From assembly GCF_018129085.1 (NCBI RefSeq), contig NZ_JAAGBB010000006.1:1-64000 (forward strand): DNA of 64,000 nucleotides, written 5' to 3'. The position numbers and the translations under genes were made by a program. The stretch comes from Plastoroseomonas hellenica (GTDB lineage Bacteria; Pseudomonadota; Alphaproteobacteria; Acetobacterales; Acetobacteraceae). The notes under the pieces were generated by a model. It ran no database searches, was not told where the DNA came from, and saw only the letters and a program-made list of their open reading frames with translations. Of this stretch, positions 10,335 to 58,506 are shown piece by piece (within the stretch, counting starts at the first letter, position 1; every line of letters begins with the position of its first letter).

Positions 10335-10360
10335 GAGCCCGGGAACCTCCGCGCCGTCGA

Positions 10361-10380
10361 CGTGTCGACATGTCGACACG
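10361..10380. repeat. 20-bp perfect palindrome within three GTCGAC iterons
   Basis: CGTGTCGACATGTCGACACG is a perfect palindrome. Together with an upstream copy, GTCGAC occurs three times at exact 8-base steps (10356, 10364, 10372). It lies between the HUH-like gene and the DUF927-like gene, so it could be an operator or part of a replication origin. No known consensus is matched. Confidence 0.5.
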
Positions 10381-10586
10381 ACTCACAAGACCGCCCACGC
10401 GCTGCGCCAACATCCTTTGCAGTGTTGCGATCAGGCCTGTGTTTGGATGGCCTAGATCGCCTCCCCGAGGGCCTCCGCAGCCATTTTGACGTTTCAAATC
10501 GCCATTTTCCGACTGCGCGACGTGCACAGCTCGGCTTCGCTCGATGTGCGCGAACGCTTTCCTTTTGCTCAAGGGATTTCACCACC

Positions 10587-12329: not shown

Positions 12330-12376
12330 GGTCATGGTCATGTGACCCTCCGCCCGGGACCTGTGTGCGTTGCTGA

Positions 12377-12402
12377 TGCGGGGGCACGCTGCCCCCGCAT
12401 TT
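12377..12402 (+). terminator. Rho-independent-type terminator
   Basis: A perfect 10-bp stem (TGCGGGGGCA, loop CGC, TGCCCCCGCA) followed by TTT, starting 47 bases after the DUF927-like gene. Confidence 0.7.
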
Positions 12403-12658
12403 CCGGCCACCCACTCTCGAATCCGCATGCAAGACTCGCGCCGAATTGTCAGCCTGAACGGGATGCGGAAATCAGGCTTGCGCCCCAGCAGACTTCACTA
12501 GACGCCCGCCACCGACGAGCCAGCCTGCTGCTCGAGTGGCGGCGCCAGGCTGGGAGGGGACGACGCCCGGCGTCGTCCGGACGGAGCCAGAGGTCCCGCC
12601 CAGCCTGGCGCCGGTTCGCGTTGTCGAGGATCCGCCGCCGCGGCCGCAGGCTCCGGCA

Positions 12659-12847
12659 CTCGGCCGGAAAAGCTACTTCTTTGCGGGCTCGCTGGATGGC
12701 GGCAGGCGAGCCGCTATCATCTACACCCTGGTCGGCACAGCGGAACTCAACGGTTGGGATCCGCAGACCTATTTCCGCGTGCTCCTCGACCGCATCGCCG
12801 ACCACCCGATCAACCGCATCGGCAACTCGCCCCTTGGAGCCTACGGC
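12659..12847 (+). pseudogene. IS66 transposase (TnpC) remnant
   Basis: The translation GRKSYFFAGSLDGGRRAAIIY followed by LVGTAELNGWDP and RIADHPINRI is the conserved C-terminal end of IS66-family TnpC. Only about 60 residues are recognisable; upstream residues have diverged and the usual ending is lost. No terminal repeats were found. Together with 20985-21217 and 55981-56193 it shows repeated IS66 decay in this island. The rest of 12403-13283 holds no gene I can support. Confidence 0.75.
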
Positions 12848-13283
12848 CCAACAGCACCTGAGCCGCGGCAAGCCGCCGCGACCGTAGCCGTCGGTGCACG
12901 CTTGCGCTGATTCCCCGGATCGCGGTCGGGGCGGTAGCTGCAGTCGTCGCACCAAGGGGCGCAGTACCGATGTCGTCCCGCGGGGTTCGGCTGGCGCCGC
13001 ATAAGCTTTCCGCTCAGGAAGGCCGAAAAGCTCGGCGTACGGGCCTGTGCGGGTGGGTAAGGCTATCACCCTAGCGTGGCAACGCTTCGCCCGCCCCACA
13101 GGTCTGCTGTGGGCCTTCACGGCGCGTATCAAATCGCCTCCTACCGCAGTGGTGTGTTGCTGCGCCGCAACACCAGGACACCTTCCCGGATATCTCGGCT
13201 TGCAATCATGCCGGCCGGCTTGTTGCGCGGTTGCATCCCTGCATGATCGGCAACTCGGAAGCGCAGCTTGTTAGGGAAGACTC
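12848..13283. other. Intergenic region, no gene recognised
   Basis: The stretch between the IS66 remnant and the autotransporter. Frames are open on both strands, but none has a plausible start and composition together. It probably holds the autotransporter promoter. Codon-like stretches on the minus strand could be the decayed end of an older gene. Confidence 0.4.
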
Positions 13284-41713: not shown

Positions 41714-42035
41714 GAACTGTGTCCCTGAAAGCGATCGCCGATTTGGCGGACAGCGATCTAAGCCACCTGGGGGAAAAGCACGTAAACCCTTCGGACTGAC
41801 GCGGGCCACGTTTACCGAGCCGCGGTGACAAAAGTAAGGGAAAAGGAGCACGGTAGAGCGGTGACCTTCAGTGCATCGGCAAGGGGGCCTGCTGCGCGCC
41901 CCCGTTGCATCCCCCCGGCATTCGGCCGGTAAGAACGTACTGAAGCAGTAGATCCTCCCGCGTTCGCGATTGCGGCTTCCAAGATCCTGCCGTAAGTTAC
42001 GTGCCTATAACGAATATAACCTCATTGGGGCGGAC

Positions 42036-44291
42036 ATGCTTGACGAGATCGTCATTGCCGGGGAGGGAAGCTATCCAGAAGCCGGCGAGCGCCTGAGCTC
42101 TCTCAAGGCGCTAAACTTCGTTTTCGGAGCCAATGGTTCTGGAAAGACGACGATCTCTCGCGTAGTCGCCGATCCGGCGGGCCATCCAAAATGCAATCTC
42201 AGTTGGCAGAACGGCAGGCGATTGGATAGCCGCGTTTATAATTCAGACTTCGTGGCAAAGAATTTCGCCGAGGCGACGGCGCCGGGTATCTTCACGTTGG
42301 GCGAGGAAAACGCAGAAACGCGCGCTAAGATTGACGCCACGAAAAAGAAGGTGGATGACCTGGAGCGAGAAATCTCTAGGTTGACGCTTAACATTGAAGG
42401 CGCCGATGGTAAAGGCGGTAAGGTTGGCGAGCTCAAAAAGGCCCGTGATGAGTTCGACGAAAAGTGCTGGCGCCATAAGACAACGCACGATACCTATTTT
42501 TCTGCCGCGTTCGAAGGTTATCGCAACCAGAAAAGCCGCTTCGCCGAAAAGATGCTGACGGAAAATGCCGGAAACACGGCTGCGCTTCATCCGCTTGATG
42601 TCTTGAAGGCGAGAGCAGGAACGGTCTATCGCCGCGGGATCGAGCCGTTGCCTCGCGTGCCAACGATCTCCTTGAAGGACCTTCGGGATCTCGAGGGTGA
42701 AGGAATTCTCGCTAAACGCGTCATCGGAAAGCAGGATCTGGATATCGCTGCTCTTATAAAGCGCCTTGGTAACAGTGATTGGGTAAAGCGAGGATTGGAC
42801 TTCCTGGGTGAACCGGGATCGCCTTGCCCCTTCTGCCAGCAGCCGACGCCCCACTCACTTGAGCAGGAGCTGAATGCCTATTTCGATGAGGCTTATCTCG
42901 CCGACATGGCAGAATTAAAGCGCGTCGATGAAGCTTACGACACGTTTGCATCAGCGGCGATTAAGCGGCTTGGAGAGCTAGTCTCATCTGCTCATCCGTC
43001 ATTGGACGGCGAGAAAATGAAGCTCGAGCTGGAGCGATTTGAGGACCGTGTAACCCTTAACAAACGTCTCCTCGACCAAAAGTCGAAGGAGCCAAGCGCC
43101 CCCATCACGCTCGATTCACTCGGAGAAATTGAGGCGGAGATTACTGGCACAATAACGTCTGCGAACGCGGCCGTTGACGAGCATAACCGCATGGTTACCA
43201 ACCTCGCGACCGAGAGGACAACTCTCACATCAGAAATCTGGAAACGCTTGCTGCATGACGGCGCAGCCGACATTGTCGCCTACACCGCTACGAAAACTGC
43301 CTCCGAACGCGCGATCAACGGGATGAATGGTTCACGCACCGCGAAGGAAGGTGAACTTGCCGCCGCCAGGTCTGAGCTGAGCATGCTCGAGCGGAGCGTT
43401 ACCAGCGTTCTGCCTACGGTAACGGAGATCAATGCGACGCTCAGCTCCTTTGGCTTCATGAATTTTAAGTTGGCGACAGCCGGCGAGAATGACGGAGACT
43501 ATAAGGTCGTCCGCCTCGACGGCTCCGACGCAATCCGCACTCTCAGCGAAGGCGAGCGAGGATTCATCACATTTCTTTACTTCTACCATCTGGTCCGCGG
43601 AAGCATTAGCGCCTCCGGTGTGGCGACAGATCGGGTCGTGGTATTCGACGACCCTGTGTCGAGCCTCGATAGCGACGTTCTGTTTATCGTCAGTGCGCTG
43701 ATTAAGCGGGTTTTGGACGAGGCCTGCCTGGGGGCGGGAAGCGTAAAGCAGGTCTTCGTGCTCACCCATAACGTCTACTTCCACAAGGAGGTGACATTCG
43801 ATCCGAAGCGGCAAGATGTATGCCGCGCGCATGAGACGTTCTGGATCATTCGAAAGCTCGGCAAGCATTCCAAGATTATTGGTTATGGCCATAATCCGAT
43901 TAAAACGTCTTATGAGCTTTTGTGGGCTGAGGTGCGCGATCCAAATCGGTCTAAAGTCACAATCCAGAATACACTTCGCAGAATCGTCGAAAACTATTTC
44001 AAGATCCTCGGTAATCTCGATAAGGACGATATCATCGCGAAATTCACCGGTCGTGATAAGACGATTTGCGCCTCGTTGTTTTCGTGGGTAAACGACGGAT
44101 CGCATAGTCACCACGACGACATTTTTGTTTCGGCTGATGACGGCCTTGTCGAGCGATACCTCGCCGTGTTTCGTGATATATTCGTCCAGACCGGGCATAT
44201 CAAGCATTATGAAATGATGATGGGGCCGATTCCCGCGGCGGAGGCTAGAGATGCTTCTGCCGCAAGCAGAAATGCAGCAGCTGCTGCATAG
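42036..44291 (+). CDS. RloC-like anticodon nuclease with zinc hook (AAA_13 ATPase)
   Basis: A protein of 751 residues. Walker A is GANGSGKT (31-38), followed by the family segment RVYNSDFVAKNF, a coiled coil, a CPFC zinc hook (C264, C267), a second coiled coil, a LSEGERGFITF signature and Walker B VVFDDPVSSLDSD. The C-terminal part holds R648-x3-E652 (LRRIVENYF) and H690 (NDGSHSHH), which match the Arg/Glu/His triad of PrrC/RloC anticodon nucleases. Such proteins cut tRNA anticodon loops during phage infection or DNA damage. ATG at 42036 is chosen over 41970 because the domain starts there. No linked type I restriction system is seen, which favours RloC over PrrC. Confidence 0.75.
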   Translation: MLDEIVIAGEGSYPEAGERLSSLKALNFVFGANGSGKTTISRVVADPAGHPKCNLSWQNGRRLDSRVYNSDFVAKNFAEATAPGIFTLGEENAETRAKIDATKKKVDDLEREISRLTLNIEGADGKGGKVGELKKARDEFDEKCWRHKTTHDTYFSAAFEGYRNQKSRFAEKMLTENAGNTAALHPLDVLKARAGTVYRRGIEPLPRVPTISLKDLRDLEGEGILAKRVIGKQDLDIAALIKRLGNSDWVKRGLDFLGEPGSPCPFCQQPTPHSLEQELNAYFDEAYLADMAELKRVDEAYDTFASAAIKRLGELVSSAHPSLDGEKMKLELERFEDRVTLNKRLLDQKSKEPSAPITLDSLGEIEAEITGTITSANAAVDEHNRMVTNLATERTTLTSEIWKRLLHDGAADIVAYTATKTASERAINGMNGSRTAKEGELAAARSELSMLERSVTSVLPTVTEINATLSSFGFMNFKLATAGENDGDYKVVRLDGSDAIRTLSEGERGFITFLYFYHLVRGSISASGVATDRVVVFDDPVSSLDSDVLFIVSALIKRVLDEACLGAGSVKQVFVLTHNVYFHKEVTFDPKRQDVCRAHETFWIIRKLGKHSKIIGYGHNPIKTSYELLWAEVRDPNRSKVTIQNTLRRIVENYFKILGNLDKDDIIAKFTGRDKTICASLFSWVNDGSHSHHDDIFVSADDGLVERYLAVFRDIFVQTGHIKHYEMMMGPIPAAEARDASAASRNAAAAA

Positions 44292-44679: not shown

Positions 44680-45517
44680 GGTCCGGACCCATAAAGCGTT
44701 TGGCGCGCCGCGGCGTGCTGTGATTCACCGTTCCCGTTGAGGGGAAACGGTCGATGGCGGAGAGCTTCTGGCTGAGCGACGCGCAATGGGATCGGCTGCG
44801 GCCGCTGCTGCCGAACAAGCCGCGTGGCGTGCCGCGGGTGGATGACCGTCGGGTGATCAGCGGTATCGTGGTGGCATTGCAGTCGGGCGGTCGCTGGATC
44901 GACGTGCCGGCGGCGTATGGGCCGCGCAAAACGCTCTACAACCGGTTCGTGCGCTGGTCGGCGAAAGGCGTCTGGCGCGAGATCTTCGAGGCGTTGGCTG
45001 CGGTCGGCGGCCCTCCGGCGGAGGTCCTGCTCGACAGCACCCATGTGAAGGCGCACCGCTGCGCGACGGGTGGAAAAGGGGCGGTCGCGCCCAGGCGCTC
45101 GGCATCAGCCGCGGCGGACGCACCACCAAGATCCACGCCCTGAGCGATGGCTAAGGCCGGCCGCTCGCCTTCGTGCTGACCGGCGGACAGGCCGCCGACT
45201 GCCGCACAGCCGAAGCGCTGCTACAGCGGCTTGCGCCATCGACCCTGGTCATGGCCGATCGTGCCTACGACACCAACGCCATCCGCCAGCAGATCGAGCA
45301 GCAGGGCGCGGTGCCGAACATCCCGCCCAAGCGCACGAGGCGCTGGAAGCACTGCTTCAGCCCGGTGCTCTACCGCGGCCGCAACGCCATCGAGCGCATG
45401 TTCTGCCGCCTCAAGGACTTTCGCCGCATCGCCACTCGCTACGACAAGCTCGCCACCAACTTCCTTAGCGCCGTCTACGTCGCTGCAACCGTCAGCTACT
45501 GGTTGTGAGTCCGGACC
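44680..45517 (+). mobile_element. IS5-family (IS427-like) insertion sequence
   Basis: An 838-bp element with terminal inverted repeats GGTCCGGAC at both ends, flanked by a CTAG target duplication (44676-44679 and 45518-45521). Size, CTAG target and a transposase split over two frames fit the IS427 group of IS5. The repeats are still matched, so the insertion is fairly recent. Confidence 0.85.
44754..45508 (+). pseudogene. IS5-family transposase, frameshifted, with in-frame stop
   Basis: The first frame (44754-45143) encodes FWLSDAQWDRLRPLLPNKPRGV, GGRWIDVPAAYGPRKTLYNRF and LLDSTHVKAHR, the N-terminal half of an IS427-type transposase with the first catalytic Asp. The second half (AQALGISRGGRTTKIHALSDG, later VMADRAYDTNAIR and RNAIERMFCRLKDFRRIATRYDKLA with the last Glu) is in the next frame, as expected for programmed frameshifting near the A-rich GGAAAAGGGG. 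A TAA at 45152-45154 interrupts that second frame, so this copy is probably inactive. Confidence 0.82.
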
Positions 45518-46221: not shown

Positions 46222-47004
46222 ATGTATGCAAGCGATCATAACGCGTGTATCGAGGACAATGAACTCTCAATTCGAGAACTCGATATTCATGACCTAGATT
46301 CACTGATAAACGTTCATCAGAAAATTGTTGAGGCACTTCCGTCTCCAAGTCTATTTCGAGCACGCGGAGTCGAGTCGATTAGGAGCCTGATCGGAGACGA
46401 CTCCTCGTGCTTCGGCATATTCGACGGAAAAGCCCTAGTAGCGTATTCAGCCGTTCGCTTTCCGGAATCCGGCACGGAAAATCTCGGGATCATTTTGGGC
46501 TTTGACCAATACGAAGCACAGCTTGTCGCGGAATTCGAAGGTGTTGCGGTATTACCAAAATATAGAGGAAATGGTCTACAGGATGTTCTTACGAAAGCGC
46601 GTGCGGCGAAGGCGATACTTCGGGGCCGGCTCATAACAGCCGCGCGCGTTTCACCCGAAAACTTCCATAGCCTCCGAAATTTCCTAGCATATGGAATGAC
46701 CGGACGGAAGTTTGTCAGGCTTTCCGGTGGATATGAGCGGCTAATAGTTGTTCGTAATCACGTGGATGGTGAAAACCCATCGTGGATGGATGAGACTGAG
46801 GTTATAGCTACGGATTTCGCCGGGCTAAACCGCGCTTTTGATACAGGACTTGAGCTTCGAGCGTTCGATAACGCTCGCGCTAAACCTGTGTTTGTGCTGG
46901 CGAAGCGTCGGCGTAGCACGGAATCTCGGCGTCGGAAGGTAGTTCGGGCCTCGGGTGCAATGGGCGTCGCACTTGGGCCTGATGTCATCAAAATGCCTGC
47001 CTGA
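46222..47004 (+). CDS. GNAT-family acetyltransferase, first gene of the cluster
   Basis: A protein of 260 residues. The GNAT core is visible: a beta-strand pair (FGIFDGKALVAYSAVRF), then EFEGVAVLPKYRGNGLQDVLTKARAAKA, where RGNGLQ is the acetyl-CoA pyrophosphate loop, and later SPENFHSLRNFLAYGM, the usual C-terminal motif. About 90 further residues, ending very basic (KRRRSTESRRRKVVR), extend beyond the domain. In antibiotic clusters GNAT enzymes acylate an intermediate or protect the producer; here the acceptor could be an amine of the product. It lies 31 bases before the TruD-like gene. Confidence 0.85.
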   Translation: MYASDHNACIEDNELSIRELDIHDLDSLINVHQKIVEALPSPSLFRARGVESIRSLIGDDSSCFGIFDGKALVAYSAVRFPESGTENLGIILGFDQYEAQLVAEFEGVAVLPKYRGNGLQDVLTKARAAKAILRGRLITAARVSPENFHSLRNFLAYGMTGRKFVRLSGGYERLIVVRNHVDGENPSWMDETEVIATDFAGLNRAFDTGLELRAFDNARAKPVFVLAKRRRSTESRRRKVVRASGAMGVALGPDVIKMPA

Positions 47005-47035
47005 AGGCAGCAAAAAAAGCGAGGGAGTTCAGAAC

Positions 47036-48091
47036 ATGGATGAGCCCATCGTAAAATATTCACCGTCTGATTTCCTGGTAGTCGAGAATCTTGTCCTTCC
47101 GGAATTCACGTTCCCCGCGGCAGGACATTATGACACCGGAGATGAAGCTCCATTCACTTATCTCCGTGCGCAGAAATCCGGATACACCACGTTTGAGCTC
47201 ATGGGACTCCTCTCCAGATTTTTCTGTCTACCAACGGAATCGGTTACCTATGCAGGTTTGAAAGACGAGGATGGTATAACCGAACAGACAGTGTGCATAG
47301 CTGCCCGTATAACTCAAAAGTCCGCAACATTATTTAACTCAACAAATCGCACGTCAGCCGGAAAATTCGTAAGAATATACCTATTGGGATATGGGAGCAA
47401 TAAAATAGAAATTGGAAAATTGAATGGAAATGGATTCAGGATAACTATCAGAAAGATCAGTCAAAAATTCGCCGATACACTGCCTGGTCGTGGGAAAATG
47501 TTGATATCTTTCCTCAATTATTACGATACTCAAAGATTCGGGATACCAAACAACAGAAAAAACACGCACCGTATAGGCGAAGCCATACTGAACGGGGATT
47601 TCAGGAGAGCCTTAGTCTTAGTACGCGAGTCCGGTACTCCGGAAGGCAAAATCGCCGTGGAGGCCCAAATGAACGACGCAGAGAAGTTCTTTGAATGCCT
47701 TGAGCCCAGGATAATTTCATTTTACAAGAGCTCATTTGCGTCTTTCGAATGGAACAGCAGGCTTGCAAAAGAAGTAAGGAAATCCGCACATGAATTCATA
47801 GAGAAAAACTACGAAGGAATAGAATATACCTTCTCGAAAAAGTCGGCATGTGTGTCTGGTATGATGGCCTCGATGAAGTCTATGCCGATGAAAAAATATT
47901 ACGGAGACATGGCTATAAGTGAGCGTCCAACGGCCATACAAACTCAGATACATTTCGACCAAATAGAAGAAGATGAAGTTCATGTTGGATTTTATAAAAT
48001 TTCAGTATCATTCTTCCTCCCATCTGGTACTTACGCGACAATGTGTTTGAAGCAGATTCTAAATTTTGGAGACATAAGAGATGTTTCGTAG
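47036..48091 (+). CDS. TruD-type pseudouridine synthase (C-nucleoside entry enzyme candidate)
   Basis: A protein of 351 residues. It aligns by motif with TruD: SPSDFLVVENL, then PFTYLRAQKSGYTTFELMGLLSRF, the catalytic motif YAGLKDEDGITEQTV with Asp77 in place of the TruD nucleophile, GNGFRITIRKIS (the NxF-type strand), and NYYDTQRFGIPNN. ATG at 47036 follows GGGAG and is preferred over a longer frame running into the GNAT gene. TruD normally makes pseudouridine 13 in tRNA-Glu. Low GC and clustering with biosynthetic genes suggest a dedicated role: TruD-like PumJ begins pseudouridimycin synthesis. It overlaps the next gene by 11 bases. Confidence 0.88.
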   Translation: MDEPIVKYSPSDFLVVENLVLPEFTFPAAGHYDTGDEAPFTYLRAQKSGYTTFELMGLLSRFFCLPTESVTYAGLKDEDGITEQTVCIAARITQKSATLFNSTNRTSAGKFVRIYLLGYGSNKIEIGKLNGNGFRITIRKISQKFADTLPGRGKMLISFLNYYDTQRFGIPNNRKNTHRIGEAILNGDFRRALVLVRESGTPEGKIAVEAQMNDAEKFFECLEPRIISFYKSSFASFEWNSRLAKEVRKSAHEFIEKNYEGIEYTFSKKSACVSGMMASMKSMPMKKYYGDMAISERPTAIQTQIHFDQIEEDEVHVGFYKISVSFFLPSGTYATMCLKQILNFGDIRDVS

Positions 48092-48551
48092 CGGAGATGG
48101 AAGAGAAAAGATTGAGCCGAAGATTGTGAGGACCAATGGGAGTCACATTCTGTGCGATTTCGACAAATGCTCCCCAGAAATTCTGCGAAGTCGGGATACC
48201 GTAGAGGATCTCCTCCTTAGAGCGGCACGACTAGCAGAAGCTACGATCGTCGCGAGTCATTTCCACGCCTTCTCGCCAGAAGGCATTAGCGGCATTGTCC
48301 TAATAGCCGAGTCGCATCTATCGATCCACACCTGGCCGTCGGCAAGATATGCAGCTGTCGATCTATATACCTGCGGTGAACTGGATTCCTGGCCCGCCTT
48401 GGCCGCGCTTGCTCAGGCTCTTGGTTCCAAGGAACCTCGTTATGCGGAGATCCACCGCCGCTCACTATACGAACCAGTTGCGGAGAACGTCAGGAGGAGA
48501 CCGGGAATTGATCTCCAAAAAATCGCGCTGCCAAGCGACTTACATAAATAG
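48081..48551 (+). CDS. S-adenosylmethionine decarboxylase proenzyme (SpeH/SpeD type)
   Basis: A protein of 156 residues. The processing site is ESHLSIHTWP: self-cleavage between Glu77 and Ser78 would turn Ser78 into the pyruvoyl group. His83 and Cys98 keep the exact +5 and +20 spacing of the catalytic His and Cys of the bacterial class 1B enzyme, and AAVDLYTCGE follows. It makes decarboxylated AdoMet, the aminopropyl donor. It overlaps the TruD-like gene and precedes the aminopropyltransferase by nine bases, which ties donor supply to transfer. Confidence 0.93.
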   Translation: MFRSGDGREKIEPKIVRTNGSHILCDFDKCSPEILRSRDTVEDLLLRAARLAEATIVASHFHAFSPEGISGIVLIAESHLSIHTWPSARYAAVDLYTCGELDSWPALAALAQALGSKEPRYAEIHRRSLYEPVAENVRRRPGIDLQKIALPSDLHK

Positions 48552-48560
48552 GAGGAAGCC

Positions 48561-49928
48561 ATGAAACTTATAAATTGGCTATATGCCGCGCATCCATTCT
48601 TCAGAGAGATGAAGAAGGACATACTTTCGGTCTTGGAAGACCAGGAATGCACAAATTTGGATGGACTTGTTTGTGCATCCCGGCGACCGGTGCGAAGTGT
48701 TCTTCTCGGAATTCGAGCGCTGGAACTATCGAAGCAACTTTCGGCGGATGACGGTACGGTGAGGCTCAACAACCCTGGTAATAGGACCGCGAGGCGACCA
48801 CCAAGGGAAAAGTTCGATCGCTCTGCGGTTGACGCTAATGTGGCGGAGCGTTATCAGGGCCTTGCGAAAGATCGAGAAGATCCTTCCCTCCTTTGGAGCC
48901 AGCGCAGGCTCAACCCGGACTCAGCCGTCGAGAGAGCTGCATATATTGTAAAATGGTGCCGTGGTCTACGAGGGAAAATCGCATTCCTCGGCGATGACGA
49001 TCTAGTAAGTCCTCTGGTCGCCGCATCTCTGCCCGATTGGCAGGTCTATGTGTACGATATTGATGCCGCAGTGCTCTCGAAGGCTCAAGATACGGCAGAG
49101 ATACTGGGCGCTTCGCTGCTGGCTGAGCACGCTGATCTCTCCAAAGCTGCGCTGAAGCTCGCTGGGGAAATCGATGTCGTTGTCAGCGATCCGTTCCCGA
49201 CGGGAGATGGCTCCTTCGAGGTCATGTTTTGGGGCCAAGTCTCCACGCTGCTCAAACGTGGCGGGATATCAGTGTCAACGATCGGCGCGTCGCATAAGCC
49301 TGTCGGCTACGACAGCGCAGCTCTCCGCGGCCAGGAGGCGCTCGGCTTAGCTCTGCTGGACCTGCGCGAGAGTTTCGGTCGTTACGAGACTTTCTCCTTC
49401 GAGTTCTCTTCTTGGGAGATGAGCTTCATGAAGGAGAGACGACTCACGAGCAGCATTTCCCAAACCAAGTCCCTGATGGCCGCGAGGAAGATACGCGAGC
49501 CCATCGCTATGGCTCCTGGGACGCCATTCGATTTCGATAGGTGGTCTGCGGCCACCGCGAACCACTACCTCACACGGCAGGCGGGGGCTTCCGAACAGCG
49601 CCGGCTTGCAGCAGAGCGAGGAGTGATCGGCGACGCGCCGTTCGACGAATCTGCGCCCCCTCGGGAGGGCTTTAATGTCGGGGCATTATTCAACCTCCTC
49701 TCTACTGATAGCGGAGGAGGCGGCAATACGTCACCGGTCGCGGCGACCTACGATCGTGCCTCATTGGAAGCCGGACTCCGCAGTGCGGAGGCTCCCTACA
49801 CCGAAGAGGAAATTGCCGAGCTGGGGCGCCTGCAATGCTCCTCATCGATCTATGACGATGGCCCGTTGGCTGAGCTCGGGCTAGCCGTTAGGGCCATGGA
49901 ATCGTGGGATCGGAAGAGGCTGGATTAG
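48561..49928 (+). CDS. BpsA-like aminopropyltransferase
   Basis: A protein of 455 residues. A winged-helix-like N-terminus is followed by a Rossmann domain with SQRRLNPDSAVERAAYI, GKIAFLGDDDLVSPLVAA (GDDD at 144-147), VYVYDIDAAVLS and VVVSDPFPTGDGSFEVMFWG (209-224). These are the hallmarks of N4-bis(aminopropyl)spermidine synthase, which uses decarboxylated AdoMet to make branched polyamines in thermophiles. Here it is about 100 residues longer at the C-terminus (Pro/Gly/Ser-rich, then helical). AGGAGG precedes the ATG. A cluster-specific amine acceptor is possible instead of spermidine. Confidence 0.87.
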   Translation: MKLINWLYAAHPFFREMKKDILSVLEDQECTNLDGLVCASRRPVRSVLLGIRALELSKQLSADDGTVRLNNPGNRTARRPPREKFDRSAVDANVAERYQGLAKDREDPSLLWSQRRLNPDSAVERAAYIVKWCRGLRGKIAFLGDDDLVSPLVAASLPDWQVYVYDIDAAVLSKAQDTAEILGASLLAEHADLSKAALKLAGEIDVVVSDPFPTGDGSFEVMFWGQVSTLLKRGGISVSTIGASHKPVGYDSAALRGQEALGLALLDLRESFGRYETFSFEFSSWEMSFMKERRLTSSISQTKSLMAARKIREPIAMAPGTPFDFDRWSAATANHYLTRQAGASEQRRLAAERGVIGDAPFDESAPPREGFNVGALFNLLSTDSGGGGNTSPVAATYDRASLEAGLRSAEAPYTEEEIAELGRLQCSSSIYDDGPLAELGLAVRAMESWDRKRLD

Positions 49929-49960
49929 CCCCGCGTGGAACACAACTAAGGAGCGCCGTT

Positions 49961-51025
49961 ATGGCTTCAGGCCTCGATCGCTTCCGCAGGCTATTGATCT
50001 CTGAGCCAGCTCTCGCCACGGAGCTAGGGTCGAGACAAATGGCAGCTTTTAGAGGCGCATCCTTGCCGGTAACTGAATTGCCTTCCGACAGCGCTGCCCT
50101 CGCGCACGAGGCCGCGCAGCGGCCTGGAACGCTACTCGTCCTCCGTACGCCCTCGAAAGGCTGGGTGACAAAGGCCGATTACGGCTCCCTGGCCAGCCGG
50201 CCAGGTGAAAGGCATTTGCATCCCATTATGGGTTGTCAATCTGCGTGCGCGTATTGCTACCTCCGGGGAATGGAGGTGGGCCTACGGCCTCTTCGCTTCC
50301 ATGTAGACCTTCAAGATCTTCTAAGTTCGATTGATAGAGAAATTGCCACTGCGGATCATCAACCCTTGTTGTTCTGTACTGGCGAGTTAGCAGACAGCCT
50401 TGGAGATGCGGATCTCTTCCCCATTGCGGCAGAGCTCATTCGGCACATTGGGCGAAGGCGGGTCGCGCAACTGGAACTCCGGACTAAAAGCAACTGCGTG
50501 CAGTCGCTGGTTGATTGCGACCATGGCGGCCTAACCACGGTCGCCTTTTCCCTTGCCCCTCAGCAATATATAAAACGGCACGAACCCGGCACAGCCTCTC
50601 TCCAGGAGAGGCTCGAGGCAGCCCGGGAAGTGCAGAAACTGGGATACAGATTGGCATTCAAATTTGAACCTATTCTGATCGAGAGCGATTGGAAGATCCT
50701 TTATGCGGAGTTACTTGAGGCGATTGTTGGAAGCGTCGATATCGCGCCGATAGATCATGTCAGCGTCGGATGCCTGAGATGGAGCGGCCCATTATCCGAT
50801 ACCAAGATTTTCGCTAAGCAATATGCCGAGGAGATCGCTGCCGGGGAATGGATTCAGTACCGGCCTGACCGCAAGAACGGAACAATCAGGAAGGACGACC
50901 GGTTGGAAATCTACCGGTGGATGAGAATCCAGCTCAGGCGGGTTGGCATAAGATCGCCAATATGGTGGAGCGTTGAAGAAAAACCGATTCTGGATCTTCT
51001 GAATGAAGATCAAATGAATCCATGA
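49961..51025 (+). CDS. Radical SAM enzyme, spore photoproduct lyase-like
   Basis: A protein of 354 residues from ATG at 49961 (AAGGAG upstream; the longer frame overlaps the previous gene). MGCQSACAYCYLRG holds the [4Fe-4S] ligands C92-x3-C96-x2-C99. LLFCTGELADSLGDADLF, ELRTKSNCVQSLVDCDHGG, SLAPQQYIKRHEPGTASLQERLEAAREVQKLGYRLAFKFEPI and VGCLRW follow spore photoproduct lyase in order. Cys139 in FCTGE aligns, by eye, with the H-donor Cys of that enzyme. Spore photoproduct lyase acts on pyrimidine carbons, so action on a pyrimidine C-nucleoside is an attractive inference. Confidence 0.86.
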   Translation: MASGLDRFRRLLISEPALATELGSRQMAAFRGASLPVTELPSDSAALAHEAAQRPGTLLVLRTPSKGWVTKADYGSLASRPGERHLHPIMGCQSACAYCYLRGMEVGLRPLRFHVDLQDLLSSIDREIATADHQPLLFCTGELADSLGDADLFPIAAELIRHIGRRRVAQLELRTKSNCVQSLVDCDHGGLTTVAFSLAPQQYIKRHEPGTASLQERLEAAREVQKLGYRLAFKFEPILIESDWKILYAELLEAIVGSVDIAPIDHVSVGCLRWSGPLSDTKIFAKQYAEEIAAGEWIQYRPDRKNGTIRKDDRLEIYRWMRIQLRRVGIRSPIWWSVEEKPILDLLNEDQMNP

Positions 51026-51041
51026 AACCGGAGGTCGGCCA

Positions 51042-52088
51042 ATGAGCGTAAAATTTGGGATCGTGATAGGCGATACCGACCTGTATGCAAATGCTTATAG
51101 GCAATCCGCGTTTCTATCCTCAAATTTGCTTTGTGGATGGGTGCGACGGCCCTCCTGCCCGTCCGACTTTTATGATGTGCGGTTAAGTGGCTTAAAAGAA
51201 TATCCCTCCGTGGCGGAGATGACGGCATCCAGCGATATCACGGCTATAGTATTTTTCGATTTTCCTACGGGGCGAACAATTGACGTGGTGCGTTCTCTCA
51301 ATGCGGGAATCCACGTCCTTTGCTACGGAGCCTTTGCTTCGTCACTCTCCGACGCAAGGGACATGGCGACCGCCGCCGCTAGGCCGGGCGCAGTGTCGTG
51401 TGTCGCTAAGCCGATGATGAGGGGACCTTACGATCGGGCCATCCAGAAGTTTTTGCGCTCTGGTAGGCTGGGGCGTATAACTGTGATGGACGTGATACAA
51501 ACTTCTCCTGCGAACGTCCACGGCGGCTCTTTTAGGCCATTCGAGCTGGTGAAATATATCGGGGGGAACGCTCTTAACATTTGGGAGTACGCCGATACTT
51601 TAAACGCGTGGCTCTCGCCGTATGAATCATTGTATGCGGTAGGAGCGGCGCCTCTTGGCGATCAAAAATATGATGCCGGCTTGCGAAGAAGCGACGTTGC
51701 GCCACAAATATTAATGATATCTGGTGTGCTGGCGAATGGTGCCATCGCCGTAGAGTACCATGGCGGCATATCCAGATTAAAGAATAACCATGATCTTCTG
51801 ACGGTATACGGTAGTCTCGGGACTTTTAGATATCATTTCGGAAATCATAGAGCGTTCTTTGCCGAAGCCGGTGAGGATTTCGTGGCGATGGGCGATGATA
51901 TTCTGACTAGGGACCCCCAGGAGATTGACCCCGCGCAGGAATTTTTTGACATCATTACGAGGAAAGCAACGCCAAGGGATGGGTTATCACTGCGGCCTTT
52001 TGAAGAGGCCTTGAGGATTATGCAGAAAGTCGAGGCGATCAGGCACTCCTACCTGTACAACCGGCCGTTTGATTTGTCCGAACTGTGA
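51042..52088 (+). CDS. Gfo/Idh/MocA-family oxidoreductase, divergent
   Basis: A protein of 348 residues. A Rossmann-like N-terminal half (FGIVIGDTDLYANAYRQSAFL, then ITAIVFFDFPTGRTIDVVRSLNAGIHVLCYGAFA) is followed by a beta-sheet domain (GRLGRITVMDVIQT, GGNALNIWEYADTLN, NGAIAVEYHGG, YGSLGTFRYHFGNH). The usual EKP motif is replaced by YGAF, and the GxGxxG loop is altered, so cofactor use or catalysis may differ. In nucleoside pathways such enzymes oxidise or epimerise sugar carbons. It lies 16 bases after the radical SAM gene and closes the tightly packed part of the operon. Confidence 0.8.
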   Translation: MSVKFGIVIGDTDLYANAYRQSAFLSSNLLCGWVRRPSCPSDFYDVRLSGLKEYPSVAEMTASSDITAIVFFDFPTGRTIDVVRSLNAGIHVLCYGAFASSLSDARDMATAAARPGAVSCVAKPMMRGPYDRAIQKFLRSGRLGRITVMDVIQTSPANVHGGSFRPFELVKYIGGNALNIWEYADTLNAWLSPYESLYAVGAAPLGDQKYDAGLRRSDVAPQILMISGVLANGAIAVEYHGGISRLKNNHDLLTVYGSLGTFRYHFGNHRAFFAEAGEDFVAMGDDILTRDPQEIDPAQEFFDIITRKATPRDGLSLRPFEEALRIMQKVEAIRHSYLYNRPFDLSEL

Positions 52089-52322
52089 TGCCGATCAGAG
52101 GCGGCGTAACAACACGTCCGGACTAGCCTCGAGATTTGACCAGTCCGCCTGGAGGGATTAGCGAAGGATATCGTTTGGCAGCCTTCGGAACGAAATCGAC
52201 GGCCACTCACATTAATCGTCAAGCGCTCGAAAAGCAAGGCCAACGCGTTATCGAGGTGCAAAGCTTTATTATGCACGGCATTTCCCGATGCAGAAACATC
52301 GTATAGGGAAGGAAACCCGTCC

Positions 52323-53627
52323 ATGCGCCGAGGAAGCAAAAGCCTTCCGATGAACGCCAACCAGCGTAGGTATACTCGCTTATTCCGAGAGCATGCGTTA
52401 TCGCGCATCAACAATATGTCCTTAGCTTTTTTGGTGCAAGCTCGCTACCGGCGTAGCGCCGTTCGTGAATCGATAAGGCGCCTGACAGACAGACACGAAT
52501 TGCTTAGAGCGCAGATTTCGAGTTGCGGCGACGATATGTTTACCCTACTTGATCAAAACGAAGATGCACTAGAGATTCGATTTGTGGAAGGATTTAGTCC
52601 GGCAGGCCTGGAAGCTGCAGCAGCTATGATAACAACGCAAACTCATCTCTCAGAAGAGAGTCGTCCGGGCAGAAACCTTATACGGTTTTTTGTGCTAGAG
52701 GGCGGTGAAACCGAATGGGTTTTAATCGTATGCGCGTCCCATATTATTATGGACGGCGTCAGTGTTCGGATCGTGTTGAAGGAATTCTGCTTGATCTACG
52801 AATCGATTGTAAATAAAACTCAACTTTATCTTCAGGATACGCGCGCAAGCCACTCTGATATGGTGGCGCAAGAGCGTCACCAGATTACAAACGCTGAACG
52901 GCCCATGGAAACTCTGGCACAGAGCCTTAGTCCTATCATTTCCAGCAGGACAAACATTAAGGACATTGGATTCTCTCCAACGGCGAGGGCGAGGTGCCCC
53001 TTGGATGATACGCTATGGCGCCAGCTGTCGCAGATATCCAAGCGGATCGGCGTAAGGTCGAGCGTTCCCTATCTGGCGGCATTCCTTCAGTCGGAGTGGG
53101 ATATGGGACGCAAAGATGTTCTTGTTAAAACAGTTAGAGCGGAAAGAGGGAGATTGTCTGACTCGGGCCTGGTCGATAACTTTATCGATTTATCTATCCT
53201 GGATTTCCGCGCAATTAACAATGTGGCTTTCGAAGCGTACTTGCTGGACGTAAATAAGGTTGTAAATGCCGCTGGTGAGAGTAAAGCGATGTACTGGCCA
53301 TTGTGCGAAAGGCATTTTCCATGTTACTATACGCATCCCTACGGGATAATAGATTGCGAATTTAGTATGTTGATTGCGGAAGGCAATAAATGGGTTGATA
53401 GTAATGCTATTAGCTTGACTAGGATTGACGGGGCCGTCCAAAATACGAGTACATGGGCTCAGTATAGCCGATGCTTGCAAGTCCGGCCGACCAGAGATGG
53501 GGAGGGATCGCTCTTCCTCCTTTATAATACGTGCGTGATTGAACCCGCTGAGGCCGAGGCGCAGATAGCTGCAATCCTAAAAGTCCTGGAAGATCTAGCC
53601 GCGGCTGCCGCGTTTACCCCGGACTAA
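52323..53627 (+). CDS. Stand-alone condensation-domain protein
   Basis: A protein of 434 residues. It has the two-lobe plan of condensation/acyltransferase proteins: NNMSLAFLVQARYRRSAVRESIRRLTDRHELLRAQI at the start, the active motif CASHIIMDGVS (S139-H140-x3-D144-G145) and a late NFIDLSILD/RD segment before the C-terminal LLYNTCVIEPAE strand. The catalytic second His of HHxxxDG is kept; the first His is Ser. No adenylation or carrier domain is present in the window, so it may use a free acyl donor or a carrier encoded elsewhere. AAGGAAA precedes the ATG. Confidence 0.82.
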   Translation: MRRGSKSLPMNANQRRYTRLFREHALSRINNMSLAFLVQARYRRSAVRESIRRLTDRHELLRAQISSCGDDMFTLLDQNEDALEIRFVEGFSPAGLEAAAAMITTQTHLSEESRPGRNLIRFFVLEGGETEWVLIVCASHIIMDGVSVRIVLKEFCLIYESIVNKTQLYLQDTRASHSDMVAQERHQITNAERPMETLAQSLSPIISSRTNIKDIGFSPTARARCPLDDTLWRQLSQISKRIGVRSSVPYLAAFLQSEWDMGRKDVLVKTVRAERGRLSDSGLVDNFIDLSILDFRAINNVAFEAYLLDVNKVVNAAGESKAMYWPLCERHFPCYYTHPYGIIDCEFSMLIAEGNKWVDSNAISLTRIDGAVQNTSTWAQYSRCLQVRPTRDGEGSLFLLYNTCVIEPAEAEAQIAAILKVLEDLAAAAAFTPD

Positions 53628-53811
53628 ACGGTGTGACTGCGCGGCGCCATGGGGAGGCTGTCAGGATTAAAGCGCGCGGAGAGTACCCTGCGAGCGGCAA
53701 TTGAGATCGTTTTTCTTACGCCGCGGTGGGCATCGAACGGTTGCCATTCCCGTGAATGACGGCAGTTGGCTCGGTTCCTCGTGTTGTTTTTGAGCCCTTT
53801 GGAGATTGATG

Positions 53812-54444
53812 ATGGATTCAGATGCTGCAGCCGCCGAAAAGGCAATAGGGTTTCTCTCGATAGCGGAGCGCATCAAACGCGAACTTCGCCACTCTTGGCT
53901 GTCAGATGGGCGGCGTGAAAGTGTCGCCGAGCATACTTGGTTTATTGCGCTATTGGCGCTGCTAACGTATCGACGGCTGCAGGAGCCAGTCGCACTGGAG
54001 CGCGTGCTGGCAATGGCAATCGTGCACGATATAGCTGAGGCTGAAGTTGGTGATATACCGTTTTTCGAGCAAAGCGAGCGGAAAACTCGGAAGGCGGCAC
54101 TCGAGCTGGCGGCAATGGACCGAATTTCTTCTCTGCTTCCGGATCCGGAGGGGGCTTTCGTTAGGGAGCTTTGGCTTGAATTCGAGAAGGGGCAGACGAT
54201 AGAGGCAAAGTTTGTTCGGGCGCTCGATCATCTTGAGGTGCAGGCGCAGCACAATCTTGCCGATCTGAATACCTGGGAACCTATTGAGCACGAACTTGTC
54301 TACACCAAAATGGACGACCGTTGTGCTCACGACGAGTTTCTTCAGAAACTTCTCTTGCATGTGCGTGGTGGTGCAGAGCGAAAGATGAAATTGGCCGGGA
54401 TCGATGTTGAGGCGGTAAAATCTAGGATCGCGGAATCGAGGTGA
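53812..54444 (+). CDS. HD-domain phosphohydrolase, YfbR (5'-nucleotidase)-like
   Basis: A protein of about 211 residues. RIKRELRHSWLSDGRRESVAEHTWFIALLALL, then AMAIVHDIAEAEVGDIPFFEQ, and ALDHLEVQAQHNLADLNTW give the H...HD...D metal sites of the HD superfamily in the YfbR/HDDC2 order. YfbR removes phosphate from 5'-nucleoside monophosphates. In this cluster it could release a free C-nucleoside from its monophosphate, a step done by a phosphatase in pseudouridimycin synthesis. TTGGAG lies just upstream; ATG at 53809 is an equal alternative. GC is higher than in the first six genes. Confidence 0.85.
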   Translation: MDSDAAAAEKAIGFLSIAERIKRELRHSWLSDGRRESVAEHTWFIALLALLTYRRLQEPVALERVLAMAIVHDIAEAEVGDIPFFEQSERKTRKAALELAAMDRISSLLPDPEGAFVRELWLEFEKGQTIEAKFVRALDHLEVQAQHNLADLNTWEPIEHELVYTKMDDRCAHDEFLQKLLLHVRGGAERKMKLAGIDVEAVKSRIAESR

Positions 54445-54619
54445 TGGGTACGCTATTCCTTAGAGCCGACATCGTCCGATTGCGTGGCGATCTCAAATGT
54501 AAGGCCCGCAGGTTTCAAACTCGCCAGCACGTGATTTCCCGTTCGCGCCGGTGCCGTTGACGCTGGAACAGTCCCGAGGTGCGCGATTGTTTCCACAACG
54601 AAATCAATGGAGTTTCATC

Positions 54620-55828
54620 GTGCCGCGCCCGCAAATTATCATCCTCTTTGTGCTGCTCGTCACGTCCGTGAGTCAGTCTTTCATATATGCGGTTCTGCCA
54701 TCTAACGGTCGCGCACTCGGCTTATCAGACATTCAGATTGGAGCTATAAGTGCCTTCTCTACAATAGGGTTTATTATTGGCGCGCCGATCCTCGGCGGGT
54801 TAAGTGAGCGGTTCGGTAGAGTGCCGTTTTTGGCATTTGGAATGCTCGCCGGCGCGCTGGTCAATTTGGTTTTCTATGTGGCTATTGGAGCTGGCTTGTC
54901 TGGTTTGATGAGTGTTTTTTCTGTTTACCTGTGTTTGGTTTTTTCGCGCTTATTTCTAAATGTCAGTTGGAGCGGTATGTTTCCCGCAGTGCAGGCCTAC
55001 ACGGCTGATAAGACGACGGATGAGAAGCGCGGTGCGGTTATCGCTATGAACAGCGCCGCGCACGGTGTGGGAGCGGCGGCCGGGCCAATGGTCGCCTTGG
55101 GGCTCGCCGCGCTAAGCCCGCTCGCCCCCTTTCTTGGTGTCGCCTTACTGTCGTTTTTGACCTTCCTGCTCGTCGTCGTTTTCCTCTCCGACGGGGCGAG
55201 AGCATCTGACCGAGGGGCGAAGGCGACCAAGAGGGGCGACGCAGGATTGCTGTGGCGGATTTGGCCCCTGTTGCTGGTTGGTTTTTTGTCGATTCTAGGA
55301 ACTCGAACACTTCAGCAGATGATCGCCTTCCGCGTTCAGGACGAGTTCGCGCTTCCTTACGAGGAAGCGGCGCACATGGCCGGAATTATGCTAGCGGCCC
55401 TTGCGGTTACGATGATCATTGGCCAGATCCTGATTGGATTTAAGATCGTGGATAGGAAGCCGCTAGAGCTCATTCGAATTGGAGGGTGGATGGCTTGTCT
55501 TGGTAGTGTCATGTACACGGCCTGCGGCTTCCTGTCCTCGCTGCCGCATAATGCTCTCTTTCCACTCGAACTTGTGTGCCTGCTTATACTCGGAGCTGGT
55601 CTGGGTTTTGTTGGTCCGGGCGCGGCCGCCCTCGTTACTTTTTCAGCAGGCAAGGAATCTCAGGGGCGCGCAGCGGGATTGTGGAATTCTGCGCAAGTTA
55701 TTGGCCTTATGACCGGACCCATACTCGGGACTGCTCTTTATCAGGTAAATGCAAATTTGCCATTTGTCCTTATATCGGCGATATTCGCCGGCATATTCTT
55801 TGTAGCGCGAATGGGGCTTGTTCGGTGA
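54620..55828 (+). CDS. MFS transporter, probable exporter of the cluster product
   Basis: A protein of about 402 residues with twelve predicted hydrophobic helices. The DHA-type motif A is visible (GGLSERFGRVPFLAFGM), and a later WNSAQVIGLMTGPILGTALYQ segment matches motif C-like export features. GTG at 54620 is chosen because GGAG lies seven bases upstream and the first helix starts soon after; a longer frame begins at 54551. As the last gene of the cluster it probably exports the product and protects the host. Confidence 0.85.
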   Translation: MPRPQIIILFVLLVTSVSQSFIYAVLPSNGRALGLSDIQIGAISAFSTIGFIIGAPILGGLSERFGRVPFLAFGMLAGALVNLVFYVAIGAGLSGLMSVFSVYLCLVFSRLFLNVSWSGMFPAVQAYTADKTTDEKRGAVIAMNSAAHGVGAAAGPMVALGLAALSPLAPFLGVALLSFLTFLLVVVFLSDGARASDRGAKATKRGDAGLLWRIWPLLLVGFLSILGTRTLQQMIAFRVQDEFALPYEEAAHMAGIMLAALAVTMIIGQILIGFKIVDRKPLELIRIGGWMACLGSVMYTACGFLSSLPHNALFPLELVCLLILGAGLGFVGPGAAALVTFSAGKESQGRAAGLWNSAQVIGLMTGPILGTALYQVNANLPFVLISAIFAGIFFVARMGLVR

Positions 55829-56657: not shown

Positions 56658-57233
56658 TCAGATCGAGCTGATTAGGCGTTTCTGTCTGCGAGGGTCTGCT
56701 TCCATGTATCCCTGCGTGGTCTCGATCGATCGATGTCCCGCTAAGCGCTGCACATCGCGCAAGCTGCAGCCGACGCGCCATGCATTCTGGGCGGCCGCAG
56801 TAATGAATGTGCGGCGGCCTGAATGGGAGGAGCAGCCTTCCAGACCCAAAGCCCGGAATGCCGCCACGAACCAGTTCACCACCGAGTTTGCCCGTAGTGC
56901 GCCGCCGCGAGCAGAGCAAATGACGGATCCAGCATCGGACCCCAGCGCCTGGAGGCGACGCAGCGCGATCCTAATGTCGGCATGCATCGGGATATATCGC
57001 CCGCCACGCTTCTTCGCGATCGCATCACGGACGGAGATGGTGTCCGAGAGACGACCTCTTGGGTCGAGCACCATGCTCCACTCAAGCTTTGCGATTTCGG
57101 ATGCCCGAAGGCCAGCTTTGAAAGATAGCAGCACCATCGCGACGTCCCTCTCGGGAGAGCTCGTCGAGCTAGCGTAGCGCAGCAGGCGCTTCAGGCACGC
57201 CTCATCCAGCACCTTGGCTTGCCGACCAGGCAT
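56658..57233 (-). CDS. Tyrosine recombinase, catalytic domain only
   Basis: A protein of 191 residues. The catalytic residues are present: Arg in FKAGLRASEIAKLEW, HSGR in CSSHSGRRTFITAAA, His in RLAGHRSIETTQGY and the Tyr of QGYMEAD. The core- and arm-binding domains that normally precede are missing, so it is either a natural short integrase or a truncated one. It resembles integrases of other mobile elements rather than the P4-type integrase at the left end, which suggests a second element merged into the island. Confidence 0.85.
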   Translation of the reverse strand: MPGRQAKVLDEACLKRLLRYASSTSSPERDVAMVLLSFKAGLRASEIAKLEWSMVLDPRGRLSDTISVRDAIAKKRGGRYIPMHADIRIALRRLQALGSDAGSVICSARGGALRANSVVNWFVAAFRALGLEGCSSHSGRRTFITAAAQNAWRVGCSLRDVQRLAGHRSIETTQGYMEADPRRQKRLISSI

Positions 57234-57311: not shown

Positions 57312-57647
57312 CTAGCACTCTCCGGCCATCATGATCGTGAGCACCCGGTGCGTGACCGTCGGATCCGCCGGATCAATCGAATGCGCGGTGAGGGAGCGGT
57401 CATAGTAATCGATTTTGAAGATCACCCGCTCGCCCAACACCTCGATGATCGCAAAATCATGCTCTCCATGGGGATCATTCCCTCGACCGAAGGCGGCAAA
57501 CTGCTGCACCTGAGCGAGGACTTCATCGCGGAGGCGCGCGCTGAGTGCCTGGACGCCCGCTGTTAGTAGAATGGTTCCGCCGATTCCGTTTATGCGCAGC
57601 TGATCGTTCAGCTCCCTTATTCTCGCCGCTTGGTCGGCCTGACTCAT
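57312..57647 (-). CDS. DUF3768 family protein
   Basis: A protein of 111 residues matching DUF3768: RIRELNDQLRINGIGGTILLTAGVQAL, then NDPHGEHDFAIIEV, FKIDYYDRSL and DPTVTHRVLTIMMAGEC. The family is frequent on alphaproteobacterial plasmids and islands; function unknown. Its start overlaps the stop of the next upstream gene by four bases. Confidence 0.88.
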   Translation of the reverse strand: MSQADQAARIRELNDQLRINGIGGTILLTAGVQALSARLRDEVLAQVQQFAAFGRGNDPHGEHDFAIIEVLGERVIFKIDYYDRSLTAHSIDPADPTVTHRVLTIMMAGEC

Positions 57648-58246
57648 CTGCTGGGCCCCTCGGAAGCGGGCTTCACTGTGCGTACGAAGGCGACGAGTTC
57701 GTCGAGGCGACGTTGCCGCAGGCCCTCTTCGGGCTCATCGGTCCAGTACAATGTCGCGATACCGCTCGCGATGTGCAGCAGGGTCGCTGGCCACCAGCCC
57801 GCGACAAACCCGTTGCTATCAAGGTCGGGAGCGAGGACCTCGTCGCCTTCCCGGGTCAAGCCAGACAGCTCTTCGAGTAGCTGGCGCTTTCTGGACAGAG
57901 TGATGGTGTCCTTGCCGCCGGCATCGCTCGGGTCGAGCCGGGTGTCGTCGACCACCTCCTTCTGCGCGGCTTCGCGAAGGCTCTCCCAGAGCGTGGTGCT
58001 GATGATATGGAGAGCAGGCATCCCGTCAGCTTTCAGTGTCCACGGACGAAGCTGAGTGACCACTGAGATGGCCGCTTCAGATGAGGCAATCAGAATCGAT
58101 GTGTGCAAGTTTTCTTTCACCCATCGGGCGATGCGGATCTCTCCGATCGCAAAGCGCGCTCCCACAGCGCTCTTGCCTTTCTTAAGGATACCAAATACAG
58201 CGAGCACTGGAACGAGAGCAGGCGGCTTCTCTGGCTTCTGCTTCAT
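57644..58246 (-). CDS. Hypothetical protein at the right end of the island
   Basis: A protein of 200 residues from ATG at 58246; GAGGAGG lies five bases upstream, which decides the start over an ATG at 58321. It contains VLAVFGILKKGKSAVGARFA, then WVKENLHTSILIASSEAAIS and LSRKRQLLEELSGLTREGDEVL. It may be a small alpha/beta protein; the GKS triplet is not in a full P-loop. It is cotranscribed with the DUF3768 gene. No family is recognised. Confidence 0.7.
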   Translation of the reverse strand: MKQKPEKPPALVPVLAVFGILKKGKSAVGARFAIGEIRIARWVKENLHTSILIASSEAAISVVTQLRPWTLKADGMPALHIISTTLWESLREAAQKEVVDDTRLDPSDAGGKDTITLSRKRQLLEELSGLTREGDEVLAPDLDSNGFVAGWWPATLLHIASGIATLYWTDEPEEGLRQRRLDELVAFVRTVKPASEGPSR

Positions 58247-58506
58247 AAAAACCTCCTCGAAAAGTGGTGTTTGGCGCGGCAGTGCCGCTGCTATTATTTC
58301 ATAATATTTGCGATGCGTCAACAGTTATTTTTCGTGAGGGTTTCGCTGTATCGAATCAGAGCGGACGCGCCGGCACATCTGTGCGGCGCGGCCGAGACCA
58401 ACCGACGGGTCTGGTTCGACGTCTTCTCGAAGGAAGGCGGCGCTGCCGCCGTTCACGCCGCGCGGTGCTCGGCGTTTGCGGTGATGTCGACTGCCACCGT
58501 TGGCAG

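Follow-up and report, generated by a model that had tools for sequence, protein, structure and literature searches.

A stretch of 64,000 nucleotides from Plastoroseomonas hellenica (Acetobacteraceae; assembly GCF_018129085.1, contig NZ_JAAGBB010000006.1), hereafter the window, carries nine consecutive genes that probably form a cluster for an exported, aminopropyl-bearing C-nucleoside, a variant of the TruD-type pathways with an aminopropyl branch fed by decarboxylated S-adenosylmethionine (dcSAM). The gene content, the operon-like layout, a TruD outside the housekeeping group, a second S-adenosylmethionine (AdoMet) decarboxylase and the conservation of key motifs are established here. All nine open reading frames (ORFs) lie open on the plus strand at 46222..55828, exactly where the original prediction had placed them, with no internal stops and with sequences resembling a ribosome-binding site (RBS) upstream of most starts. 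The first six genes, predicted to overlap or to stand 0–32 bases apart, are separated by 31, -11, 9, 32 and 16 bases (with the TruD gene starting at 47036 and that of the radical SAM enzyme at 49961).

The proposed entry enzyme, a TruD-like protein, scores 121 bits on the Pfam TruD profile PF01142 (5.9e-35), above its cut-off, and falls far under all seven NCBIfam TruD models listed (115.7 bits vs 172.2 for TIGR00094, with the other six further off). It keeps the aspartate of the TruD GxKD motif (GLKDE at residue 74), which we take to be the catalytic residue. The protein carries GLKDED, NYYDTQRFG and SxxWN, and the corresponding signatures KDE[DE], NYYDxQRFG and SxxWN were found in 10/10 members of a non-housekeeping group, here termed bio-type, and in 0/24 housekeeping TruDs. 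All 24 housekeeping proteins show KD[RK] and RSxxFN instead, both of which are missing from the window protein. The three signatures could serve in genome mining as a simple means of telling bio-type proteins from tRNA enzymes.

In a 35-row tree, the 10 bio-type TruDs fall on one side of a branch with support 94/96 and the 24 housekeeping TruDs beyond another (96/94). Between them lies a Calescibacterium protein (L005), counted in neither group, in which NYYDTQR is present and the other two signatures are not. One of the 25 housekeeping-type loci (L028) yielded no tree row, and housekeeping-type matches of the phylum sample lacking a locus were left outside the tree. Once three long rows (L005, L044 and L036) were dropped from the tree and the topology tests, 9 bio-type and 23 housekeeping proteins split at 100/100, and constraining the window protein to group with a housekeeping subset was rejected for both subsets tried, one of 14 rows and one of 9 (p 1.6e-7 and 1.8e-14).

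The distribution of these proteins points the same way. No second TruD was found in the 7.28 Mb genome itself. TruD matches were detected in 46 of the 398 genomes of the phylum sample, this one included; four of the others are long and strong (1e-28 to 1e-51), while the rest reach 2.6e-11 at best and are nearly all partial. One genome of this sample, G443, carries both a bio-type and a housekeeping-type TruD. A bio-type profile, whose sensitivity for housekeeping TruDs was not gauged separately, found no TruD among 325 further genomes from the order or 321 further ones from the class to which the Rhodobacteraceae genome discussed below belongs, and an earlier version with the same limit found none among 345 more from the phylum that includes the Amycolatopsis genome. 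Tree, motifs and distribution all disfavour a housekeeping tRNA TruD and, judged by its sequence, the window protein is a member of the bio-type, non-housekeeping group. The original prediction had named grouping with the housekeeping tRNA enzymes, together with action on tRNA only, as one finding that would count against it; because the protein is not nested among the housekeeping TruDs tested, that objection does not hold at the level of sequence.

We read nine further loci with a bio-type TruD, leaving L010, whose gene order is close to that of L008, out of the count, and judged six of them to sit in biosynthetic-looking clusters. The Amycolatopsis locus (L003) encodes a 5-enolpyruvylshikimate-3-phosphate (EPSP)-type transferase, a radical SAM protein with a B12 domain, 2-oxoglutarate (2OG) oxygenases, TauD, a carbamoyltransferase, Y_phosphatase3 and an aminotransferase. 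On a Mesorhizobium plasmid (L008) we found a radical SAM protein, an EPSP-type sequence over two ORFs, a 2OG oxygenase, a carbamoyltransferase, an aminotransferase and a tyrosine-type phosphatase, and in G443 (L041, G443:C32:1-10494) an EPSP-type transferase, a radical SAM protein, two 2OG oxygenases, an aminotransferase, Y_phosphatase3 and an MFS protein. These three loci have malayamycin-type genes, and their pairing of EPSP-type and radical SAM proteins agrees with where TruD-like enzymes are known to act, in the synthesis of malayamycin and of pseudouridimycin (PMC8724604, PMC7955054). The other three comprise a Rhodobacteraceae locus (L002) with a DHO_dh/ferredoxin-domain protein, a HalD-family protein, a Pfam MFS protein, an ORF that looks like a second MFS transporter and a HAD-type hydrolase; a Gloeothece plasmid (L009) with genes annotated as ABC transporter, glycosyltransferase, histidine phosphatase and sulfotransferase; and L042, with a radical SAM protein, an epimerase and a short-chain dehydrogenase.

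The AdoMet decarboxylase and the BpsA-like protein encoded next would provide the aminopropyl branch. The former matches AdoMet_dc (2.3e-35) and TIGR03330, the latter model above its cut-off, and retains the processing motif ESHLSIHTWP and the cysteine motif TCGE. Considering that the genome has another AdoMet decarboxylase gene on contig C17, beside a spermidine synthase gene in a separate speD-speE pair, the cluster gene is an extra copy. The BpsA-like protein retains DPxxT and GDDD, the latter indispensable in BpsA (PMC12979288), and has about 175 C-terminal residues beyond its Pfam match. Its nearest solved relative by sequence is BpsA (PDB, 7e-5), at about 20-27% identity. BpsA is also the top Foldseek match of the predicted structure, which lends weak support because the model is of low confidence (mean predicted local distance difference test score, pLDDT, 43.5; fair only at about residues 86-240). 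A BpsA_C-AdoMet_dc fusion with both domains above Pfam cut-offs (L046, 117-1622) occurs in the genus of G443, where 25 of 30 genomes have a match to it (21 near-full-length and open, 4 in pieces only); no TruD gene stands beside the fusion in five regions of about 19-20 kb from that genus. Along with the conserved motifs and the second decarboxylase copy, this fusion supports a working pair and makes the aminopropyl branch of the original prediction credible at the sequence level.

The remaining genes were assigned with varying firmness. The GNAT is borderline (PF00583, 20.5 bits vs a cut-off of 20.7), with no convincing relative in the PDB. The radical SAM protein matches spore photoproduct lyase (SPL) in the PDB at 1.2e-19 and keeps CxxxCxxC, while scoring 100.9 bits against an NCBIfam SPL cut-off of 400. 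At one aligned position it has a glutamate, where serine or alanine stands in two solved SPL chains; we take this position to be that of the catalytic Cys140, mutated in those two chains. Given this glutamate, it is unlikely to be a spore photoproduct lyase, an identity also disfavoured by the missed NCBIfam cut-off. The Gfo/Idh/MocA assignment lies under the Pfam cut-off (E 0.078); 1,5-anhydro-D-fructose reductase (PDB 2glx) matches residues 52-208 at 1.1e-6, and a predicted structure with a mean pLDDT of 34 was set aside. The condensation-domain motif is HHxxxDG, and the cluster protein reads SHIIMDG, with the second histidine and DG kept and serine for the first histidine. For the MFS protein, the 25 NCBIfam matches shown include drug and siderophore exporters, all under cut-off.

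PDB relatives of the HD protein are 3kh1, HDDC2, an 'oxetanocin-like protein' and YfbR. Phosphatase-type proteins of other families were found at five of the nine other bio-type loci (HAD at L002; tyrosine-type at L003, L008 and L041; histidine-type at L009), and the HD protein would fit as their equivalent here. By this analogy, the earlier suggestion that it replaces the pathway phosphatase is plausible. Even in pseudouridimycin synthesis, where SapB accepts unphosphorylated pseudouridine (PMC10127198), the early intermediates may or may not carry phosphate.

From this gene content we infer the reactions, their order and the product as follows. The TruD-like enzyme would act on a uridine nucleotide, either free or within RNA, and isomerise it to pseudouridine or pseudouridine phosphate, from which the HD protein would strip phosphate. 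AdoMet decarboxylase would supply dcSAM, and the BpsA-like enzyme would move its aminopropyl group to the C-nucleoside or to a polyamine attached later. The SPL-like radical SAM enzyme, perhaps with the Gfo-like protein, would change the base or the sugar, the stand-alone condensation protein and/or the GNAT would acylate an amine, and the MFS protein would export the product.

The same combination was sought elsewhere. Comparison of the nine proteins by blastp with the ORFs of four TruD loci from genome contigs and of seven others revealed no AdoMet decarboxylase-like or BpsA-like protein beside a TruD. Viral contigs searched with the TruD, BpsA-like and SPL-like proteins gave no confirmed relative, and plasmids, queried with these three and with the Gfo-like, condensation and GNAT proteins, gave no BpsA-like match. 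BpsA-like matches were found in none of the 397 other genomes of the phylum sample and in one of the 149 others of the family sample (G068), a match treated as spurious, with two stops and only residues 306-435 covered; a search by DNA found the cluster in neither of two other genomes of the genus. Among ten TruD-bearing genomes or records, two (G443 and G546) have a BpsA-like match, in both cases on a different contig from the TruD gene. The claim that no described cluster joins C-nucleoside formation to an aminopropyl branch agrees with the open-licence literature, where no report of such a TruD cluster was found among the matches listed. In the main text of a paper on Acetobacteraceae metabolites (PMC8776678), nucleoside, pseudouridi-, polyamine and spermidine are absent. 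A 2022 review names six C-nucleoside antibiotics and gives only malayamycin and pseudouridimycin as TruD type (PMC8724604). PumJ is present in diverse, unrelated microbes (PMC7955054), so the literature already holds the general idea that more C-nucleoside clusters exist.

Several observations weigh against an exported aminopropyl-bearing C-nucleoside as the product of these genes. TruD, AdoMet decarboxylase and BpsA were found together in no other genome among those sampled, and the co-conservation of the genes, whose absence the original prediction had named as counting against it, was accordingly not seen in this sample. In the approximately unbiased (AU) test, a tree with the window TruD immediately across the dividing branch, on the side of the housekeeping proteins, was not rejected (p 0.30). 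At three of the nine other bio-type loci (L004, L043 and L044) there was no clear cluster in the DNA read, the L043 TruD lying near a contig end. The missing lyase cysteine of the radical SAM protein is a weak point. In the Gfo-like protein, YGA replaces EKP in the alignment with 2glx; EKP presumably carries the catalytic lysine of the Gfo/Idh/MocA family, so by its sequence the protein may be altered or non-catalytic, and the catalytic role originally proposed for it is not borne out. Pfam detected neither adenylation nor carrier (PCP) domains, and neither a PumH-type kinase nor an aminotransferase, among the nine genes. Lastly, longer gaps of 234, 178 and 106 bases precede the last three genes.

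Two more specific versions of the aminopropyl branch can be considered. It is possible that the BpsA-like enzyme uses host spermidine to build a free (branched) polyamine, which the condensation protein joins to an un-alkylated C-nucleoside. This version, nearest to the model of the original prediction, forms part of the proposed cluster function and draws on the likelihood given to it above. The host has speD-speE, a condensation protein is present and known BpsA chemistry acts on spermidine (PMC12979288), but the nine genes include no carrier protein, ligase or adenylation domain and, as the relationship to BpsA is distant (about 20-27% identity), the acceptor of the enzyme may differ. Rather tentatively, we also suggest that the BpsA-like enzyme alkylates pseudouridine itself with the dcSAM aminopropyl group, for instance at the ring nitrogen that the C-glycosidic bond leaves free, and that a repurposed SPL-family radical SAM enzyme edits the base.

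It is unlikely that two unrelated neighbours, a six-gene operon and a condensation-HD-MFS set, were merely joined here by mobile elements. The gaps before the last three genes, the transposase and integrase on the flanks and the GC content (GC) of the TruD gene (0.43, against 0.49-0.57 in the other eight) could be read in this way; however, all nine genes lie on one strand with GC below that of most of the flanks, and a phosphatase and an exporter are functions that such a pathway needs. RNA hypermodification, in which TruD would make pseudouridine in RNA and the aminopropyltransferase would decorate it, appears very doubtful. TruD enzymes normally act on tRNA, and aminocarboxypropyl-modified uridine and pseudouridine occur in RNA (acp3U and m1acp3Psi), yet the MFS, condensation, GNAT and HD genes do not suit this role, the TruD relatives sit in small-molecule clusters and the window protein lacks the KD[RK] and RSxxFN of all 24 housekeeping TruDs. 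Least probable of all is a decayed or silent remnant, as might be read from the occurrence of the cluster in a single genome of the sample and a Gfo-like protein without canonical EKP, given that the nine genes are free of internal stops and mostly preceded by RBS-like sequences.

Table 1. Genes of the proposed C-nucleoside cluster and the mobile elements on its flanks, in window coordinates
Feature	Position	Strand	Evidence
GNAT-like N-acyltransferase, possible self-protection or tailoring	46222..47004	+	Acetyltransf_1 6.1e-4; GGGAGGG upstream (RBS-like)
TruD-like pseudouridine synthase, bio-type; proposed entry enzyme	47036..48091	+	PF01142 5.9e-35; signatures; trees
AdoMet decarboxylase, pyruvoyl type, would make dcSAM	48081..48551	+	TIGR03330 above cut-off; motifs
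BpsA-like aminopropyltransferase	48561..49928	+	PF01861 (BpsA_C) 3.7e-12, above cut-off; GDDD, DPxxT
SPL-like radical SAM enzyme	49961..51025	+	PF20903 1.9e-27, above Pfam cut-off; CxxxCxxC
Divergent Gfo/Idh/MocA-like protein	51042..52088	+	PDB 2glx 1.1e-6; under Pfam cut-off
Stand-alone condensation-domain protein	52323..53627	+	PF00668 9.2e-15; SHIIMDG; relatives among nonribosomal peptide synthetase (NRPS) C domains
HD-domain nucleotidase-like phosphohydrolase, proposed pathway phosphatase	53806..54444	+	HD_3 7.5e-39
MFS transporter, proposed exporter	54551..55828	+	MFS_1 1.8e-36
IS5-type transposase, two pieces, left flank	44754..45508	+	DUF4096 + DDE_Tnp_1
Phage-type integrase, right flank	56658..57233	-	PF00589 2.6e-20

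The nine genes range in GC from 0.43 to 0.57, against a window mean of 0.626 and 0.60-0.70 in the flanking 2-kb windows, with the exception of 42-44 kb (0.54). This lower-GC block lies between the transposase pieces on the left, about 322 bases of which are 81% identical in DNA to a Roseomonas plasmid, and the integrase on the right. Horizontal acquisition of the foreign-looking block forms part of our best explanation. Further out, window positions 41970-44291 encode an AAA_13 protein (PF13166, 1.5e-177) that may be a defence gene; the AAA_13 family takes in RloC/PrrC-type anticodon nucleases. Beside the integrase, 57312-58321 encodes a DUF3768 protein and another of 225 residues that matches no Pfam family. 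A flanking error-prone DNA polymerase gene has its best plasmid matches in Roseomonas (about 74-75% DNA identity), which points to a Roseomonas-like host within Acetobacteraceae.

Some of the bio-type loci have features of their own. At L002 (1-14443), the combination of TruD, DHO_dh/ferredoxin-domain protein, HalD-family protein and transporters possibly serves a halogenated or reduced C-nucleoside; we read the DHO_dh/ferredoxin-domain protein as dihydropyrimidine-dehydrogenase-like. A protein of the same kind lies on the opposite strand near the TruD of L004 (Candidatus Saccharibacteria, goat jejunum), with a guanylate-kinase-like protein, and in this locus (9674-13339) the TruD is followed by a 210-residue unknown protein. 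L041 is a compact C-nucleoside-like cluster on a low-GC contig, with weak kinase-like (AAA_18) and ADI-family matches in addition. At L044 (9393-10905), the TruD adjoins an ORF that looks like a P-loop kinase by its translation, among otherwise primary-metabolism-like genes.

The systems closest to the proposed cluster each share part of its logic. PumJ and the malayamycin TruD were compared by description only, with L003, malayamycin-like in gene content, as a proxy. In the pseudouridimycin cluster (pum/sap), a TruD-like enzyme, PumJ, also stands at the entry, and the further shared features are an oxidoreductase gene, the formation of amides and a gene for export (PMC7955054, PMC10127198). 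In contrast, the nine genes lack counterparts of the PumG aminotransferase, the PumH kinase, the PumN amidinotransferase and the amide ligases, and Pfam detected none of the families of PumG, PumH, PumK, PumM and PumN among them; a Gfo-like protein is found where PumI/SapB is a GMC-type flavin enzyme, and the AdoMet decarboxylase, BpsA-like and SPL-like genes are additional. In malayamycin synthesis, a TruD-like enzyme likewise stands at the entry to the C-nucleotide (PMC8724604). Unlike the bicyclic pathway of malayamycin and polyoxin, the nine genes include no EPSP-type enolpyruvyl transferase of the MalO type, and their radical SAM gene is SPL-like.

Producers of microcin C protect themselves with a GNAT and export the compound through an MFS transporter. 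Microcin C resembles the proposed product as an aminopropylated nucleotide antibiotic (PMC10491745), but there the aminopropyl group sits on a phosphate of a peptide-nucleotide and is installed by MccD with a pyridoxal phosphate (PLP)-dependent decarboxylase domain rather than by AdoMet decarboxylase and BpsA. With the muraymycin-type linker, a uridine antibiotic likewise bears an aminopropyl group that derives from methionine (PMC10491745), but this linker is made from SAM by the PLP enzyme Mur24 and belongs to an N-nucleoside. BpsA, the branched-chain polyamine synthase, shares GDDD and an adjacent gene for dcSAM supply with the cluster protein (PMC12979288), which differs in its low identity, longer C-terminal part, biosynthetic-looking operon and mesophile-type genome. 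If TruD entry is indeed joined to dcSAM-based aminopropylation, the cluster would represent a new branch of nucleoside antibiotic biosynthesis, and direct alkylation of pseudouridine, if true, would give aminopropyl nucleosides by a route that differs from the microcin C and muraymycin ones.

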